NCBI GenBank assembly: GCA_023251875.1
Contig: JAHEXY010000002.1
Coordinates: forward strand, 248,001-312,000
DNA from: Bacteroidota bacterium
GTDB lineage: Bacteria > Bacteroidota > Bacteroidia > JAHEXY01
Length of the DNA stretch: 64,000 nt
Direction: 5' to 3'
The notes beneath the pieces are model-generated. The model made no database searches. It had not been told where the DNA came from and saw only the letters and a list, made by a program, of their open reading frames with translations. Position 1 is the stretch's first letter. The number at the start of each line of letters is the position of its first letter. This document shows, in pieces, positions 10,606 to 53,452 of this stretch. The translations under genes were made by a program, and so were the position numbers.

Positions 10606-12675
10606 TTAATGCGAAACAGAAATTTTAATTGTTTTCTTATAGCCTTTTGCTTCTACCGCTAACATGTATGTTCCAGAAGCAATGTCAGATGCATTAAATG
10701 CAATAATATTTTTGCCACTATTATAGGTTTTAGCCGAAGCAATTGGTTTAACTAAAGCTCCTGCTGTATTGTATAAATTAAGTGCAAGACTAGCAGGCTT
10801 ATTTAACGTTAATGCAATTGTTGCTTCTGTATTAACGGGAACAGGCACAACAGTAATACCTACTTCAATTGTAATTCCAATAATACTCGAAGCAGACGTA
10901 TCAACTGTAGTTGGCTCAAGCGAAGCAAGAGTAGCTTCATTGGTATTTAATACCTCTCTATGATTTATGCCATTGTTTTCAGAAACAAAAGCAACAAGTT
11001 TTAAATATTTGCTATCATAAGAGGATGGCACAGTATAATTAAAAGTATAGGAATATTTGTCTCCTGGATTTACATACGCAGGAATAACACCTTCAATACC
11101 CCAATCATTTGCCAAATTATCCCTCATTAAATGATGATGCGCATAACTAGGCATAGGATTTCCCAATCCATACCAAGGGCTACCCACAGTATTGTTAAAT
11201 GCATTGGCTTGCTCTGCAATAACGCTATCCTCTGTTAAATATAAATTGATGCGCATATCTCCCATTGCATAGTCTGAATAATCTGCATTTACAGTTGCCT
11301 CTAATTGTCTTGTTGTATCATTATAAGATCCACTAATAGAAACAGCAAGTGGAGAAAAATGGTCATAGCAATCTACAGCATAATCATCCCAATCATCATA
11401 AGAATTGATAGATTCACGTGGTCGACCTTCCCAATAATAACGATCAATTACTGCATCAGGATATCCGCTAAAGAAAAAAGCAGATTGCCAAGTAGGCATA
11501 AAAGCAGCATCTAGATTATCGCCTGCAGAAAATGTAACAATACTCGTATTAGGATAGTACTCTTTTAAGGTATCTAATAAAGCATGCCCTTCAGGACATT
11601 TTTGGCAGCCGGTACTCGTATATTCTTCAACCAACACATGTTTTGTTGAAGGTGTATTTCTAATGGTAAGAACCATTGTTTCAAGAACATCATTACAGTT
11701 TACCGCATCTTTATTGCTTCCATTTAAATTACTCGCCCATACTCTTAGAGTATCAATTTCTCCAGCAGTACTAAACGAAGTAGCATTGCTTAATGTAAAT
11801 GTATATGTTTTACCAGAGGCTATTGAAGATGTACTTACTGTTTCTGTTACGGTTGAGCCACTATTAATGGAATAATTTAAATCAAAAGAAGTAATGCTTG
11901 TTGCTCCGTTATTTAAAAATGTACCTGAAAGATTTACATTTCCTGTTGGAACATTCTTATCCAAATTTAAATCTGTAATAGTGGCATCATAATTTTCTTG
12001 TTTGGTATTATAAAACGTGTACACTTTGTCATCCGTATTCATTGAATTTAAATTGTATGAAAGAGCTGGGCTGCTAGTAACTATTGTATAATCCGAAGCA
12101 TTATCGTTTACACAACCTACTGTTCCACTAAATCCACCTGAACTATAATTTTGAACAATATCAAAACCTCCACACTCATACAAACGAATGGCAAAATCAC
12201 ACATTTGGGTTGATGCCGTTGGATTTCTCATGCTTCTCCATTGTATTACATGAACCCTATTTGGAGCTTCTCCATAATTATTAGTTTCCATAAATCCTCC
12301 TACAAGTCCTAAATCGTCCCAAAAAGCATAAATAGCATTTAATGGCCCTGTTGATGGGGGCAGGCTTGTATTATCATCATAAACCGTTGTATTACTTGTA
12401 TTAAAAGAAATATACCCACTTGTGTAAATTCTATATTCTGTAACCAAATTACCATAGAAATACCAATCAAAAGGAATAGCAATAGGATCGGTTACATAGT
12501 TTTCAGTATTATCACTCGCATTATTTAAGTTATAACGGTTGGCCTGTTGAACATTTTCACCTTCACTTTCATCATAGGGCCAAGATGTTCCTGTAGATGA
12601 TGTATAAATGTACGTTTGTGCTTGTGTAGAAATATAAAATGCAAGGAAAAAAAACGGGAGTAAATATTTTTTCAT
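10606..12675 (-). CDS. Omp28-related T9SS-exported protein
   Basis: 689 residues with signal peptide at 1-19. The N-terminal ~230 residues are a beta-rich lectin-like region, followed by a CARDB/Ig-like domain (VNLSGTFLNNGATSITSFDLNYSI). The Omp28-like thioredoxin-fold domain starts near residue 345: VLVEEYTSTGCQKCPEGHALL with a CxxC pair. The C-terminus is a T9SS type A sorting domain (VVPVPVNTEATIALTLNKPA..., KTIKISVSH). In this family the CxxC segment resembles a thioredoxin active site; whether it is redox active is not shown. It is the upstream partner of the CxxxC protein at 9887-10588. Confidence 0.82.
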   Translation of the reverse strand: MKKYLLPFFFLAFYISTQAQTYIYTSSTGTSWPYDESEGENVQQANRYNLNNASDNTENYVTDPIAIPFDWYFYGNLVTEYRIYTSGYISFNTSNTTVYDDNTSLPPSTGPLNAIYAFWDDLGLVGGFMETNNYGEAPNRVHVIQWRSMRNPTASTQMCDFAIRLYECGGFDIVQNYSSGGFSGTVGCVNDNASDYTIVTSSPALSYNLNSMNTDDKVYTFYNTKQENYDATITDLNLDKNVPTGNVNLSGTFLNNGATSITSFDLNYSINSGSTVTETVSTSSIASGKTYTFTLSNATSFSTAGEIDTLRVWASNLNGSNKDAVNCNDVLETMVLTIRNTPSTKHVLVEEYTSTGCQKCPEGHALLDTLKEYYPNTSIVTFSAGDNLDAAFMPTWQSAFFFSGYPDAVIDRYYWEGRPRESINSYDDWDDYAVDCYDHFSPLAVSISGSYNDTTRQLEATVNADYSDYAMGDMRINLYLTEDSVIAEQANAFNNTVGSPWYGLGNPMPSYAHHHLMRDNLANDWGIEGVIPAYVNPGDKYSYTFNYTVPSSYDSKYLKLVAFVSENNGINHREVLNTNEATLASLEPTTVDTSASSIIGITIEVGITVVPVPVNTEATIALTLNKPASLALNLYNTAGALVKPIASAKTYNSGKNIIAFNASDIASGTYMLAVEAKGYKKTIKISVSH

Positions 12676-45319: not shown

Positions 45320-45664
45320 TTATTTTATTTCAATTATCAGGTTCTCAATTTGCGCTTTCAATATTGGCAAATCTTGTTTAATTGTTTGATAAATTGTTAC
45401 AGCAGAAACGCCAAAATATTCATGAATTAGTTTATTGCGCATATCTTTCATTAAGCCCCATTCTATTTGGTTGGCTTGGTTTTTTAATTTATTACTAATT
45501 TTTGAGGCCGCTTCTCCAATAATTTCAAACCGCCTAATAATAGCGTCATGCACTAACAAATTAGATGAAAACTCAGCTTCCGTTAAATTGCCAATAAAAT
45601 TTTCTATTATACTGATAGATTCTAATATATCATTCAGGTACACTTTGTCGTCTCTTCTTTTCAT
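45320..45664 (-). CDS. hepT: HepT-type HEPN RNase toxin
   Basis: 114-residue helical HEPN (DUF86) protein. The RNase motif Rx4HxY is present as Arg76, His81 and Tyr83 (RNKLIHEY). HepT toxins cleave RNA and are neutralised by MntA, a nucleotidyltransferase that adds AMP to the Tyr of this motif. The gene overlaps the mntA-like gene by 4 bp (45661-45664) and lies downstream of it. Length and motif are complete, so the module looks functional. It is flanked by fragments of an XRE regulator. Confidence 0.88.
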   Translation of the reverse strand: MKRRDDKVYLNDILESISIIENFIGNLTEAEFSSNLLVHDAIIRRFEIIGEAASKISNKLKNQANQIEWGLMKDMRNKLIHEYFGVSAVTIYQTIKQDLPILKAQIENLIIEIK

Positions 45665-45942
45665 AAAAGGGGTATGGCTTCTCTCAATATATTCTGTTTG
45701 ATAGATTGTTTTATGGCAGAATACTCCACAATGTCTATTTTTCTTTTGGTAATTAGCCCTAACTCTTTCTCCATTCTTAGAATCACAAATATTGAAACCG
45801 GCTTGCTTGTTTCAATTAAAATATCAATATCGCTGTTTTTATCTTCTTCTCCTCTGGCAAACGAACCAAATATAGCAGCTCTAGAAACCGGGTAATTGTT
45901 TAAAATACCCATTATTTGTTTTTTTAAGGTATCCAATAACAT
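45661..45942 (-). CDS. mntA: MntA-type nucleotidyltransferase antitoxin
   Basis: Minimal nucleotidyltransferase partner of the HepT toxin. The catalytic GSx10DxD motif is complete: GSFARGEEDKNSDIDILIE. I chose the ATG at 45942, giving 93 residues (MLLDTLKKQIMGIL...); the open frame continues to a TTG at 46011 but that extra 23 residues is not typical. In the family this enzyme transfers AMP from ATP to the toxin. It is translationally coupled to hepT by a 4-bp overlap. The region upstream is the C-terminal fragment of an XRE regulator. Confidence 0.87.
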   Translation of the reverse strand: MLLDTLKKQIMGILNNYPVSRAAIFGSFARGEEDKNSDIDILIETSKPVSIFVILRMEKELGLITKRKIDIVEYSAIKQSIKQNILREAIPLL

Positions 45943-46049
45943 ATCGCGTATTTTAAAATTTATTGTTTTTGAAATCTGTTCTATAAATTTAGGCAAAACG
46001 ATTTTAAACAATGATTAATTATTAGTGTACCAACAATTTTTATCTCCCC

Positions 46050-46257
46050 TTACTTCTGCGTAGCCAACTTTTTTAACCTCTCATTTTCTTTCTCCAATAA
46101 TTGAATATACTTTTCTTTGTAATCATCAGAATGAAAATGCATGTTTTCGGCTCTTGCCCCCAAGTCTTGGGCCAGTTTATTGTTAGATACATTAAATACT
46201 TGTGAAGCATTAAAATTTAGCATTTGAGACACATCAACGCCCAGCACTTTTGAAATT
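46050..46257 (-). pseudogene. C-terminal fragment of an XRE regulator gene
   Basis: About 69 codons matching the C-terminal half of the intact regulator at 47188-47544, from SKVLGVDVSQMLNF to ENERLKKLATQK. Similarity stops abruptly at about 46257, 12 bp from the higA stop. The DNA-binding half is missing. Confidence 0.75.
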
Positions 46258-46268
46258 AGATAGCCGCT

Positions 46269-46709
46269 TCATACAAATTCTTTTCTTGTATTCATAACAC
46301 TTGCATTTTTTAAATGAGAATTTATTGGAGATTTTAATTTATATGGCCTGTTAAAAAGTTCTTGGTATACTTTGAAATACATTGAAAGATTGCGAATAAT
46401 TTCTTTTGATAAGCCTTTTTTATAACGCAAAATATCAGATATATACCCCTTGCTTACCTTAAGTATTTTCGCAAGGTCATTCTCCTTTAATTTATGATCT
46501 TCCATAAAAGAATGTAATATTTCAATAGGGTCAACATCATTAAATATACTATGTTCTTCATCCCATTTTTTAATGAGGTAAGTAAGTAAATCTATTTCAT
46601 CGCTAATGGCTTTATTTTTTGAAGGCAACTCAACTAGTGTCTCAAGTACCTGACAATACTCTTTATATTGAGACTTCGATTTAATGATTGTATATTTTAG
46701 TGTTTTCAT
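46269..46709 (-). CDS. higA: HigA-type antitoxin with XRE helix-turn-helix
   Basis: 146 residues. The N-terminal ~60 residues are helical (QYKEYCQVLETLVELPSKNKAISDEIDLL). The helix-turn-helix lies in the C-terminal half (HKLKENDLAKILKVSKGYISDILRYKKGLS), as in HigA antitoxins that bind toxin and repress the operon. It starts 2 bp after the toxin stop, in the toxin-first order characteristic of higBA. The C-terminal tail (SHLKNASVMNTRKEFV) ends right at the junction with the XRE regulator fragment. Confidence 0.87.
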   Translation of the reverse strand: MKTLKYTIIKSKSQYKEYCQVLETLVELPSKNKAISDEIDLLTYLIKKWDEEHSIFNDVDPIEILHSFMEDHKLKENDLAKILKVSKGYISDILRYKKGLSKEIIRNLSMYFKVYQELFNRPYKLKSPINSHLKNASVMNTRKEFV

Positions 46710-46711
46710 AC

Positions 46712-47044
46712 TTAGTAAACATTAATTGTATATTGCAAATTTTCACTACAAAGCTTGTCATATCCGGCATGTGTTCCTATCCAACATACAAATAAGTGCA
46801 CCTCTTTTGTTCCAAATACATATTTACAAATCATTCGATATTTATTACCTCCGATATCAAATATAACTCTATTACTACCTCTACCAAGTATATCCGCAGA
46901 ATTATAAGTTAATTTAATATCACCCGGTTGTTGCCAATTTGCATTTTTTAATTTTATAATCCATTTCTGAAAAGAGACTAAACTTGTCGGATGATTAATG
47001 CTAAATATTTTTAGCGTTTCCTCTTTTATTAAATGGACTCTCAT
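46712..47044 (-). CDS. higB: HigB-type mRNA interferase toxin
   Basis: 110-residue RelE-superfamily toxin of the HigB_toxin type: LVSFQKWIIKLKNANWQQPGDIKLTYNSADILGRGSNRVIFDIGGNKYRMICKYV, with the basic Arg/Lys residues used in ribosome-dependent mRNA cleavage, and a C-terminal VHLFVCWIGTHAGYDKL. It precedes higA by 2 bp. Length is full. The region 47045-47187 upstream should hold the promoter bound by HigA; I found no clear inverted-repeat operator. Confidence 0.88.
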   Translation of the reverse strand: MRVHLIKEETLKIFSINHPTSLVSFQKWIIKLKNANWQQPGDIKLTYNSADILGRGSNRVIFDIGGNKYRMICKYVFGTKEVHLFVCWIGTHAGYDKLCSENLQYTINVY

Positions 47045-47664: not shown

Positions 47665-49365
47665 ATGATAAAATATTCCTTTCTTTTTGCAGCGGTTTTA
47701 TTTGTTTCTGCATCTATTAATGTAAATTACATTTATGCTCAAGCCCCAGACTGCGCTTGGGCAAAAAGCGCAGGGGGCAATGATGATGATAACGCTTATT
47801 CTGTTACTACTGATGCAAGCGGCAATATAATAGTTGTAGGATATTTTAGTAGCCCCACAATAACCTTTGGCTCCACAACCTTGACTAACACCTCCTCCTC
47901 CTTTGATATGTTTATCGTGAAATACGACCCTAGCGGAAATGTTCTTTGGGCAAAAAGTGCAGGAGGGAACGACACTGATTGGGCAAGTTCTATTACTACT
48001 GATGCAAGCGGCAATATAATAGTTGTAGGCGTTTTTAGTAGCCCAATAACCTTTGGCTCCACAACCTTGACTAGCCCCACCACCTCCTTTGATATGTTTA
48101 TCGTGAAATATGATACAGATGGCAATGTTCTTTGGGCGAAAAGCGCAGGAGGCAACTCTTTGAATCTAGCAACTTATGTTGATGTTGATGCCAGCGGAAA
48201 TATTCTCATATCAGGATATTTTTTTAGTGGAACAGGAACAATTATCTTTGGAAATACTACTCTGACCGGAACAAGCCTTAGTGATGATATATTTATTGTA
48301 AAATACGATGCCAATGGAAATGTTCTCTGGGCAAAAAGTGCAGGCGGGGGTTTTAGCGATGAAGCATATTCTGTTGTTATAGATGCCAACGAAAATATTT
48401 TCATAACAGGCGATTTTAATAGCCCCTCAATTGTCTTTGGTAATACTATCTTATTTAATACCGATAATACAGGAAATACATCTGATGTATTTATTGCCAA
48501 ATATGATAAAAATGGAAATGTTCTCTGGGCAAAAAGTGTAGGAGGAGGCAATGGGGATGGGGCTAATTCTGTTACTGCAGACGCAAGTGGAAACATCATA
48601 GTAGCTGGATATTTTGATAGTCCCACAATAACTTTTGGTGCGATTTCCTGTGTTAATGCCATTAACACAGGAAATATATCTGATATATTTATTGCCAAAT
48701 ATGATGGGAGCGGAAACCCTATATGGGCAAAAAGTGCAGGAGGAAGCGATTGGGATGCAGCGTATTCTGTTACTGCTGATGCCTCCGGAAATATTCTTAT
48801 AACGGGAGTTTATTTCAGCTCTTCCATTACTTTAGGATCCGTTACCTTAACTAATGCTGGTAATGACGACATGTTTCTTGTCGAATATGATACAAGTGGC
48901 AATGTCCTCTGGGCAAAAAGTACGGGTGGGGCTTATGAGGATTACGGAAGCTCCGTTACTACCGATATAAATAAAAATATCGTAGTGGCTGGAGTTTTTA
49001 GTGACTTCACAATAACTTTCGACTCCATCACCTTGACTAACACTCATGCTGGATATAGAGATGTGTTTATTACCAAATATGACAACGGAAACATTACAGA
49101 AGTTAGTGATGAAAAAAACGAAGAGTTATTCTCTATTTACCCCAACCCATCTAGAGGGATATTTAACATACAGCCTTCAAAATTAACCGAAACTGCGAAT
49201 CTGAAAATTTATACTGCATTGGGAGATGAAATTTACTCCTCTCTCATTAATGATTACAGAGCGCCAATTTCAATTGATCTTTCTCAACAACCAAACGGTA
49301 TTTATTTAATTATTGCAAAAACAGAAGAGGGAGTAATGAACAAAAAAATAATTATTCAGAAATAA
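47665..49365 (+). CDS. T9SS-exported SBBP-repeat beta-propeller protein
   Basis: 566 residues. Signal peptide at 1-25, then eight SBBP-type propeller repeats of about 55 residues, each with VLWAKSAGG, a DASGNIIVVGYF strand, SPTITFGSTTLTN and a DMFIVKYDxxGN end. The C-terminus is a T9SS type A sorting domain (FSIYPNPSRGIFNIQPSKLTETANLKIY ... QPNGIYLII). It is likely a surface-displayed propeller with unknown ligand. The highly repetitive DNA (GGCAATATAATAGTTGTAGG recurs) makes it prone to repeat-number change. Confidence 0.85.
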   Translation: MIKYSFLFAAVLFVSASINVNYIYAQAPDCAWAKSAGGNDDDNAYSVTTDASGNIIVVGYFSSPTITFGSTTLTNTSSSFDMFIVKYDPSGNVLWAKSAGGNDTDWASSITTDASGNIIVVGVFSSPITFGSTTLTSPTTSFDMFIVKYDTDGNVLWAKSAGGNSLNLATYVDVDASGNILISGYFFSGTGTIIFGNTTLTGTSLSDDIFIVKYDANGNVLWAKSAGGGFSDEAYSVVIDANENIFITGDFNSPSIVFGNTILFNTDNTGNTSDVFIAKYDKNGNVLWAKSVGGGNGDGANSVTADASGNIIVAGYFDSPTITFGAISCVNAINTGNISDIFIAKYDGSGNPIWAKSAGGSDWDAAYSVTADASGNILITGVYFSSSITLGSVTLTNAGNDDMFLVEYDTSGNVLWAKSTGGAYEDYGSSVTTDINKNIVVAGVFSDFTITFDSITLTNTHAGYRDVFITKYDNGNITEVSDEKNEELFSIYPNPSRGIFNIQPSKLTETANLKIYTALGDEIYSSLINDYRAPISIDLSQQPNGIYLIIAKTEEGVMNKKIIIQK

Positions 49366-50378: not shown

Positions 50379-51542
50379 ATGAAAAAAATCTTAGCCATTG
50401 CCCTAACAGCATTATCAATTAATGCTTTTGCACAAATACCAACAACAGGCCTGGTTGGATATTACCAACTCAATGGCAGTGCTAGTGATGGCAGCGGCAA
50501 CAGCAATGATGGCACAATGACAAATGGTGCAACATTTACCACCGATAGGTTTGGCAATGCCAATAGTGCCGCATTGCTTGATGGTACTAACGATTACATT
50601 GCTTTGCCATCGGGCAGTTCAACTTCATTAAACATTACCGGAGATTTTACGGTTTCTTATTGGATAAAAACTACCGACTTGGCTGCGATTATTACAACGC
50701 TTGGCAATAGTGTTTACGCGAATTCCGGTGGGTATTTAACCGGCTTGGGGCTGGGTAATGTGGGCAGCGGAAAGGTAACTGCCGCTACACAAGGCATTAA
50801 TTGGACTGGCTCAAACTCAAATGCAATACCCGACAACACTTGGCATCATGTTACCGTGCTTTTAAAATCAGATACATTAAAATATTACATAGATGATGTA
50901 TTGGATAATCAAGTAACAGGCATTCTTTCTCCTTTATCATGGAATGGAAACAGAGTACTTGGTTGCCGTGATGATTTGTATATGACCGCAGGCGCAAATT
51001 ATGCAGGCGCACTTGACGATTTAAGAATTTATAATGTAGCGCTTACATCTACCGAAGTGAGTTCGCTTTTTACCGAAGGAATGTGTTATCAAACAACATA
51101 CGATACGGTTACTGTAGCTATTTATGACACAAATTACGTAACCCTAACAGACACCAATTATGTTACCATTACGGATACAAATTATGTTACAGATACGAGC
51201 TATGTAACTATTACGGACACAAATTATATTTCAGTAAGCGATACTTTAGTAATTAATGTAGTGTTGAGCGGTATTAATAACACCAACAACACAAACATTA
51301 TTAAAATTTATCCAAACCCTGCTGCAACACATATCTATATTGATAATGGAGATTATTCAACAATGAATGGATACACTTTAAGAATTGACAATAGTTTAAA
51401 CCAAACCGTATTTACCTCCCCAATAAACCAGCAACAATTTTATGTTGATCTTTCAACATGGTCGGGCAAGGGAATTTATTTTGTATATGTAATTGATAAT
51501 TTAAGCAATACCCTTGATGTGCGAAAAATTATTTTGCAGTAA
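50379..51542 (+). CDS. T9SS-exported LamG-domain protein
   Basis: 387 residues: signal peptide at 1-18, a LamG/concanavalin A-like lectin domain (LVGYYQLNGSASDGSGNSNDGTMTNGATF ... GALDDLRIYNVALTSTEV), a linker with five to six repeats of DTNYVT(I/L)T (~residues 245-290), and a T9SS type A sorting domain (NTNIIKIYPNPAATHIYIDNGDY ... GIYFVYVIDNLSNTLDVRK). It likely binds carbohydrate. The last 142 bp, from 51401, are repeated three more times downstream, at 51903, 52405 and 53311. Confidence 0.85.
   Translation: MKKILAIALTALSINAFAQIPTTGLVGYYQLNGSASDGSGNSNDGTMTNGATFTTDRFGNANSAALLDGTNDYIALPSGSSTSLNITGDFTVSYWIKTTDLAAIITTLGNSVYANSGGYLTGLGLGNVGSGKVTAATQGINWTGSNSNAIPDNTWHHVTVLLKSDTLKYYIDDVLDNQVTGILSPLSWNGNRVLGCRDDLYMTAGANYAGALDDLRIYNVALTSTEVSSLFTEGMCYQTTYDTVTVAIYDTNYVTLTDTNYVTITDTNYVTDTSYVTITDTNYISVSDTLVINVVLSGINNTNNTNIIKIYPNPAATHIYIDNGDYSTMNGYTLRIDNSLNQTVFTSPINQQQFYVDLSTWSGKGIYFVYVIDNLSNTLDVRKIILQ
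51110..51245 (+). repeat. tandem DTNYVT-encoding linker repeats
   Basis: Five or six copies of a short ACxGAxACAAATTATGTxAC-type unit in the LamG gene, encoding DTNYVT-like linkers. Copy number could change by slippage. Confidence 0.6.
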
Positions 51543-52044
51543 GCCGAAATGCAATGAAGGAATTAATTGAGATGCGATTGTTCATGAGCCTTTAGGCTCA
51601 GTATATTTATAGAAAAGTAAACGAGAGATATTTGTGTGTGCCTTTAGGCACAATATGAATCATTTGCTTTTCCATAAATTCATGTACCAAAATTTACATT
51701 CAAATTATCTATAAAAATAGTTGCCCGATGGTATTGTCCCTAAAGGGACAATGCAATAGAATGCTGGCTATGGTTTTCTATAAATATTAAAATCCCTAAA
51801 GGGATGTTGGTCAACCTCGCATAGCTTGGCTATACGCGCAAGCAGATAGTCTGAATTTAGGCAAGGCATTTGTGTCGCCTAATCTATAATAATAATTTTA
51901 CCCCAAACCGTATACACCTCTCCCATAAACCAGCAACAATTTTATATTGATCTTTCAACATGGTCGGGCAAGGGAATTTATTTTGTGTACATAATTGATA
52001 ATTTAAGCAACACTATTGATGTGCGAAAAATTGTTTTGCAGTAA
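51543..52044 (+). repeat. 502-bp tandem repeat unit 1 with orphan sorting-domain end
   Basis: It consists of 360 bp of non-coding DNA followed by a 142-bp copy (51903-52044) of the LamG gene 3' end, in frame to its own stop but with no start. The non-coding part has four palindromes: TGAGCC-TTTA-GGCTCA (51585), TGTGCC-TTTA-GGCACA (51637), TGTCCC-TAAA-GGGACA-like (51735) and ATCCC-TAAA-GGGAT (51792). Confidence 0.9.
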
Positions 52045-52546
52045 GCCGAAATGCAATGAAGGAATTAATTGAGATGCGATTGTTCATGAGCCTTTAGGCT
52101 CAGTATATTTATAGAAAAGTAAACGAGAGATATTTGTGTGTGCCTTTAGGCACAATATGAATCATTTGCTTTTCCATAAATTCATGTACCAAAATTTACA
52201 TTCAAATTATCTATAAAAATAGTTGCCCGATGGTATTGTCCCTAAAGGGACAATGCAATAGAATGCTGGCTATGGTTTTCTATAAATATTAAAATCCCTA
52301 AAGGGATGTTGGTCAACCTCGCATAGCTTGGCTATACGCGCAAGCAGATAGTCTGAATTTAGGCAAGGCATTTGTGTCGCCTAATCTATAATAATAATTT
52401 TACCCCAAACCGTATACACCTCTCCCATAAACCAACAACAATTTTATATTGATCTTTCAACATGGTCGGGCAAGGGAATTTATTTTGTGTACGTAATTGA
52501 TAATTTAAGCAATACCCTTGATGTGCGAAAAATTATTTTGCAGTAA
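52045..52546 (+). repeat. 502-bp tandem repeat unit 2 with orphan sorting-domain end
   Basis: By eye its first 360 bp are identical to unit 1. The 142-bp sorting-domain end (52405-52546) differs from unit 1 at several positions and matches the LamG gene better near its 3' end, giving a mosaic pattern. Confidence 0.9.
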
Positions 52547-52667
52547 ATATAGCGGATGCCTCAAAAGTAGCAACACCGCCATTTTGTTAAGCTAACATAC
52601 GTTTTGTATGCTTGGCAAAAACATTTATCTTGCGGTCTGTTTTATTTCAAAAAATAATGTACTTGCT

Positions 52668-52898
52668 ATGAGATTACAAATAATACAAGATGGACAAGGA
52701 AAAAATTCAGGTGTTTTTATTCCTATCGAGGATTGGACTTTAATAAAAATAAACTATCCGGATATTGATACATTAGACAGCAATATTCCAAATTGGCAAA
52801 AGAAATTATTGGATACAAGATTAAAAGCCATTACGAAAAACCCGATGAGTATAAAGCCTATTGATGAACTTTTTAATGAATTGGACAAAAGTATTTAA
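52668..52898 (+). CDS. probable antitoxin of a ParE-like module
   Basis: 76 residues from the ATG at 52668 (MRLQIIQDGQGKNSGVFIPI). An open frame reaches back to an ATG at 52608 with a hydrophobic start that does not fit. The short N-terminal strand plus charged helical C-terminus (NWQKKLLDTRLKAITKNPMSIKPIDELFNEL) is typical of small addiction-module antitoxins placed just upstream of RelE/ParE toxins. The toxin follows after 3 bp. The family call rests mainly on context. Confidence 0.6.
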   Translation: MRLQIIQDGQGKNSGVFIPIEDWTLIKINYPDIDTLDSNIPNWQKKLLDTRLKAITKNPMSIKPIDELFNELDKSI

Positions 52899-52901
52899 TT
52901 T

Positions 52902-53207
52902 ATGCCTTATACTTTATCATACTTTAAGGATGTTAAATTAGATGTAAAAGACGCCAAGGTCTGGTATAAAAAGCAACAAGTAGGATTAGAAAATCGCTTT
53001 GCCGATTCTATAAAAAACGCCCTTGTTAGGTTGCAACAAAACCCATTTGTATTTGCTGTTCGATATAAAAATATTCGCATTGCACACCCAAAGGTTTTTC
53101 CATATAGTATTCATTTTTTTGTTGATGATGACAAACAACAAATTGTAATTATTGCCATTGTCCATAACAAACGAAAGCCTGCTGTTGCTAAAAAAAGGAT
53201 TCGCTAA
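52902..53207 (+). CDS. RelE/ParE-superfamily toxin
   Basis: 101-residue toxin of the RelE/ParE fold: YTLSYFKDVKLDVKDAKVWYKKQQVGLENRFADSIKNALVRLQQNPFVFAVRYKNIRIAHPKVFPYSIHFFVDDDKQQIVIIAIVHNKRKP. The ending IVIIAIVHNKRKP is a hallmark of this group. It may inhibit DNA gyrase (ParE) or cleave mRNA (RelE); the sequence does not decide. The module lies between orphan sorting-domain copies 3 (52405-52546) and 4 (53311-53452). Confidence 0.83.
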   Translation: MPYTLSYFKDVKLDVKDAKVWYKKQQVGLENRFADSIKNALVRLQQNPFVFAVRYKNIRIAHPKVFPYSIHFFVDDDKQQIVIIAIVHNKRKPAVAKKRIR

Positions 53208-53310
53208 ATATTTAAATTCAGAGAATTATCGACTTATACTCGCCAATATGTGGTTCTCGGAATTTTCATAAGGAATTTGCGTAAGTTAATCTCTCAATGC
53301 AAGTTTAAAC

Positions 53311-53452
53311 CCAAACCGTATTTACCTCCCCCATAAACCAGCAACAATTTTATGTTGATCTTTCAACATGGTCGGGCAAGGGAATTTATTTTGTGTATGT
53401 AATCGATAATTTAAGCAACACCCTTGATGTGCGAAAAATTGTTTTGCAGTAA
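53311..53452 (+). repeat. fourth copy of the LamG-gene 3' end (orphan sorting domain)
   Basis: A 142-bp copy of 51401-51542, ending in the same TAA. About 9 bp of gene sequence precede it (AGTTTAAAC), with one extra C. A diverged version of the downstream flank follows. With it, this 324-bp gap before ruvC is explained. Confidence 0.88.

Follow-up and report, generated by a model that had tools for sequence, protein, structure and literature searches.

Silent-donor conversion systems, such as the pilin pilS loci and vls, draw on donors that supply variants of a protein's exposed, variable region. Integrons, and the elements found in tRNA genes, insert at a site and restore its end. In Porphyromonas gingivalis, the type IX secreted surface proteins undergo domain rearrangement and allelic exchange, and whole domains or alleles differ between strains (PMC5266723). 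The locus described here lies in a window, i.e., the whole stretch of DNA that was analysed, of 64,000 nucleotides, in which the last 46 codons of a LamG gene recur three times downstream as headless copies. As in P. gingivalis (PMC5266723), it concerns surface proteins that bear a type IX sorting domain and diversify by rearrangement and recombination; however, the array repeats the last 46 codons only, inside one genome and without gene bodies. In common with the silent-donor systems, headless partial copies adjoin one expressed gene and appear to recombine with it, but these copies carry the conserved end, with five conservative changes and nearly the same peptide, and do not qualify as donors of that kind. 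The spacers of the array contain paired short palindromes of the type clustered beside a Y1_Tnp gene at locus L106, and in this resemble the REP/BIME elements of RAYT transposases, although the array itself has no transposase gene. Partial tandem gene duplication, followed by concerted evolution through unequal crossing-over and gene conversion, shares with the array the direct repeats of fixed period, the gene body in the first copy only, the mosaic sites, and the similar coding parts next to diverged flanks. Compared with that pattern, the array unit ends in a sorting domain, and one spacer has been swapped for a toxin-antitoxin pair. In the literature searched, mostly outside subscription journals, headless type IX sorting domains are not described.

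With a probability of about 0.68, the array arose by tandem duplication of the gene end together with its spacer, its copies exchange sequence, and its headless members need no function. It is probably a neat example of repeat evolution, of an ordinary kind.

Organization of the LamG gene and its four gene ends

The features of the locus, all on the forward (+) strand, are as follows:

50379..51542, +: LamG gene, 387 aa, with a Laminin_G_3 domain, a Thr/Asp-rich linker and a type IX secretion sorting domain
51401..51542, +: copy 1, the final 46 codons and the stop of the working gene
51543..51902, +: spacer 1, with four REP-like palindromes; 0/360 differences from spacer 2
51903..52044, +: copy 2, headless; 12/141 differences from copy 1; open frame of 53 aa
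52045..52404, +: spacer 2, 360 bp, identical to spacer 1
52405..52546, +: copy 3, headless; 8/141 differences from copy 1; open frame of 53 aa; homology ends at the copy-3 TAA
52547..53232, +: insert in place of most of the third spacer, single-copy in this genome and not significantly homologous to spacer 1
52608..52898, +: antitoxin-like gene (PF09720 Unstab_antitox, 22.6 bits, slightly under the cut-off of 23.3)
52902..53207, +: ParE-like toxin gene (Pfam PF05016, 28.0 bits, above the cut-off)
53233..53310, +: diverged homologue of the final ~75 bp of the spacer, 49/81 alignment columns identical
53311..53452, +: copy 4, headless; 5/141 differences from copy 1; open frame of 47 aa
53453..53524, +: diverged homologue of the spacer start (~71 bp), including a decayed palindrome, 56/72 columns identical

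The LamG gene matches PF13385 (E 4e-21) and, at its C-terminus, PF18962 (28.7 bits against a cut-off of 27), which identifies a type IX secretion sorting domain (Por_Secre_tail). Only the second half of PF18962 is represented in copies 2–4. The repetition of the 3'-end is far above chance (E 1e-53 to 1e-71). The 142-bp end sequence is absent from the rest of the 4.8-Mb genome and from 98 others belonging to the class, none of which is related more closely than at class level. The positions, equal length, common stop and preserved frame that the earlier note had assigned to the four copies are all correct, as is its statement that copies 2–4 lack a gene body. The 502-bp period and the identity of the 360-bp spacers, which it also gives, likewise hold. 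The same junction recurs at this constant period in copies 2 and 3 and is diverged in copy 4, as in a tandem array of direct repeats. Tandem Repeats Finder did not output the array, the longest period of the program being 500.

The earlier note overlooked the spacer homologues on both sides of copy 4, together with the toxin-antitoxin pair in the third spacer. Copy 4 is preceded by about 75 bp with homology to the ~75 bp 5' of copies 2 and 3, at a score reached by 0 of 2879 control stretches, and is followed by about 72 bp with homology to the ~71 bp 3' of copies 1 and 2. The stretch before copy 4 also has a weak homology to the upstream part of the LamG gene itself, which 27 of 2875 controls equal. 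Since diverged spacer sequence flanks copy 4 on both sides, copy 4 is most simply the last unit of the array, and the array a tandem duplication with a period of 502 bp. The ParDE-like pair between copies 3 and 4 lies within the single-copy insert; the true start of its antitoxin-like gene may be further in, near 52670. Two further toxin-antitoxin-like pairs are situated at 45320-47044, one composed of an MNT-like nucleotidyltransferase and its partner and the other of HigB and an HTH antitoxin.

Each 360-bp spacer contains four short palindromes, GCCTTTAGGC or CCCTAAAGGG, located in spacer 1 at 51588, 51640, 51738, and 51794. They match palindrome clusters in loci L106 and L105 of the same genome, and the cluster in L106 adjoins a RAYT-type Y1 transposase gene (Y1_Tnp PF01797, E 8e-28). 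At L105:7264-8410, a palindrome-rich tandem array with units 527 bp apart adjoins a gene for 980 aa with WD40-like repeats.

Divergence of the copies and probable exchange with the gene end

Over the common 141 bp, the four copies vary at 14 sites (four at first, one at second, and nine at third codon positions) and differ pairwise at 5–12 sites. Nine of the changes are silent and five are conservative replacements (F/Y, V/I twice, L/I, and I/V), in agreement with the earlier description of the differences as mostly silent or conservative. Compared with the neutral share of silent sites, this ratio gives p = 6e-4; when transitions are roughly allowed for, p rises to 0.008. Among the headless copies, pN/pS is 0.14-0.27, and hence few changes replace a residue.

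The coding parts and their flanks have diverged to markedly different extents. Copies 1 and 4 show 5/141 coding differences but 16/72 differing columns in the downstream flank (Fisher p = 4e-5), and copies 2 and 4 show 9/141 coding differences but 32/81 differing columns upstream (p = 3e-9). Between copies 2 and 3 the relation is reversed, with 6/142 differences in the copies against 0/360 in the spacers (p = 5e-4). Furthermore, the variable sites are arranged as a mosaic. The eight differences between copies 1 and 3 all lie on the left, and the last six variable sites agree, with zero differences 3' of 51488 (copy-1 coordinates). The mosaic pattern that the earlier note had perceived is thereby borne out (permutation p = 0.005), but merging of neighbouring sites leaves the signal weak (p = 0.034). 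The note had also called such mosaicism unexpected for a simple duplication; this is true of one event, but a tandem array that undergoes repeated unequal crossing-over and conversion yields a mosaic.

Because the coding part of copy 4 is far less diverged than its flanks and the variable sites form a mosaic, the headless copies probably recombine with the working gene end. The silent-heavy pattern of change fits variants born in the working gene and then copied out. Purifying selection on the copies themselves is an alternative cause of the low coding divergence and the few replacements, and with one genome the two are inseparable; conversion by the gene end is the simpler reading, since the headless copies have no gene body. 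In addition, a headless end at locus L175 differs from its gene by 9 silent and 12 replacement changes, a ratio not significantly different from that of the array (p = 0.31), so the argument for selection is on its own modest.

We infer the following order of events for the tandem duplication. The duplication unit would have started inside the LamG gene, at 51401, and ended in the intergenic spacer, generating copies of gene end plus spacer. With a unit start inside the gene, a body is possible in the first copy only, and headless copies follow. Later unequal crossing-over would have altered the number of units; the identical spacers point to the recent gain of one unit, and the contrast between 0/360 differences in the spacers and 6/142 in the copies is expected if crossing-over joined alleles that had already diverged. 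The right half of copy 2 matches neither neighbour, so a single crossing-over is insufficient, and an extra exchange or repeated mutation is needed. A ParDE-type toxin-antitoxin pair would then have displaced the greater part of the third spacer, and the last copy would have lost some of the spacer on its 3' side. Meanwhile, homologous recombination among the 141-bp copies, including the working gene end, would keep them similar and mosaic, i.e., evolving in concert, and no function of the headless copies would be needed. If tandem duplication is all that occurred, the array is a clear fossil of a gene end evolving in concert with its own copies.

Shared gene ends in related genomes and in the same genome

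The family end was found in 11 other genomes, mostly on LamG proteins. In genome G109, two LamG genes (loci L114 and L122) share 474 bp at the front (84%) and 404 bp at the back (92%), the latter part ending at the stop codon, and no similarity was detected between the front and back parts. The same pattern of near-identical ends around unrelated middles is present in genes of G099 and G103. The reverse exists in G102, where LamG genes at loci L112 and L123 have an identical middle of at least 360 bp and diverged ends. In G109, two headless family ends each stand directly 3' of the stop of another sorting-domain gene; these two genes, at locus L066 (1093-1215, +, and 1430-1540, -), are convergent. 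The records of these relatives are labelled metagenome-assembled genomes, and single cases are to be taken with care. Among the loci compared, ruvC synteny gave no match in the relatives.

The near-identical ends around unrelated middles indicate that recombination in the LamG family is real; judged from sequence, the genes of the family exchange parts in related genomes. The possibility that relatives never join this end to other bodies, which would have spoken against the earlier note, thus does not apply, as near-identical family ends occur on different middles. It is conceivable, and on balance rather unlikely, that type IX surface proteins with LamG domains diversify by swapping their middles between constant ends through homologous recombination, with the headless ends of this array and of G109 as substrates or left-overs. 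If headless ends do join in this exchange, they would be a visible trace of the renewal of secreted surface proteins in Bacteroidota. A role of the array in swapping LamG middles would be novel and is, for this genome, hypothetical.

A more specific proposal is that the headless ends form a selected donor store or landing site, at which recombination in the constant end provides the gene with a new end or middle. The apparent exchange between copies and gene end, the paralogues in G109 with near-identical ends and unrelated middles, the reverse case in G102, and the headless ends directly 3' of two other sorting-domain genes in G109 all agree with it. However, the present genome contains no second gene bearing the 142-bp end of the LamG gene, the stored variants alter the peptide almost not at all, and the stored part is limited to the final 46 residues, the variable middle being absent. 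Moreover, no such array accompanies any of the 150 other sorting-domain genes surveyed (the best-scoring 150 of 367 candidates, in stretches around each). A kept store or landing site is accordingly improbable. The earlier suggestion of a reservoir for recombination with the LamG gene holds in respect of the recombination, for which the coding/flank contrast and the mosaic argue, and is doubtful in respect of a selected store, as the variants encode almost the same peptide.

Among the best 150 of 367 candidates, the survey yielded one further clear headless end, at L175, and one 50-bp remnant (C15:225794-225838). In the same set, C11:28716-28865 matches the end of C11_21384 at 89%, and most other close end matches are the ends of whole paralogues. 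The L175 element (12137-12367, -) is a headless complete sorting domain, whose last 150 bp are 95% identical to the gene end one gene upstream. Behind gene B stand second copies of the gene end, of the link that follows it (5 differences in 75), and of the initial bases of gene B, which plainly reads as a tandem duplication with the second gene B lost. This is an event of the type proposed for the array, and speaks for that reading. At L106 (6490-6585 and 8624-8719), a pyruvate carboxylase-like gene has its final ~68 bp, together with the 28 bp behind them, repeated at 97%, the duplicated end standing beyond the RAYT-type Y1 transposase gene and the palindrome cluster (a REP/RAYT module). Duplicated gene ends are therefore not confined to sorting domains.

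Assembly, possible function of the headless ends, and possible cassette insertion

Strain variants of one unit placed end to end by the assembler could in principle mimic the array, and both the identity of two spacers across 360 bp and the division of the genome assembly into 23 contigs fit such an error. However, the array stands on a contig of 579 kb, the copies differ at up to 12/141 positions, and copy 4 is set apart by diverged flanks and by another neighbour. These differences mean that one duplication or more is genuine and old, and there is little likelihood that the array is an artefact.

A function of the headless ends themselves, as short peptides, RNA elements, or terminators under selection, would account for the low pN/pS given above. 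It is very unlikely, as the short frames lack an in-frame start with a body, and neither an Rfam match nor a fold above chance was obtained.

The cassette idea of the earlier note is equally far from probable in the form of a site-specific recombinase or mobile element that places cassettes at the 3' end of the gene and re-forms that end each time, the toxin-antitoxin pair being one cassette. The right edge of copy 3, sharp at the stop, the position of the toxin-antitoxin pair between two copies, and the headless ends behind foreign genes at L066 are in its favour. On the other hand, the flanks of copy 4 are spacer-like on both sides, as expected of tandem duplication, and the toxin-antitoxin pair is single-copy. 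The 142 bp fold no better than chance (DNA fold z -0.6) and contain no attC-like structure. Neither a recombinase nor an integrase is present among the ten nearby proteins scanned (45.6-53.2 kb), and the lack of any other gene with this end in the genome also speaks against such a site. Integron-like or 3'-end-targeting integration was ruled out as the main reading by the shared flanks and the lack of a fold. A plasmid or phage origin of the array was discarded because no match was found.

Upstream of the LamG gene, a sorting-domain gene with SBBP repeats occupies 47665-49365 and contains an internal tandem repeat of 186 bp at 47757-48156.
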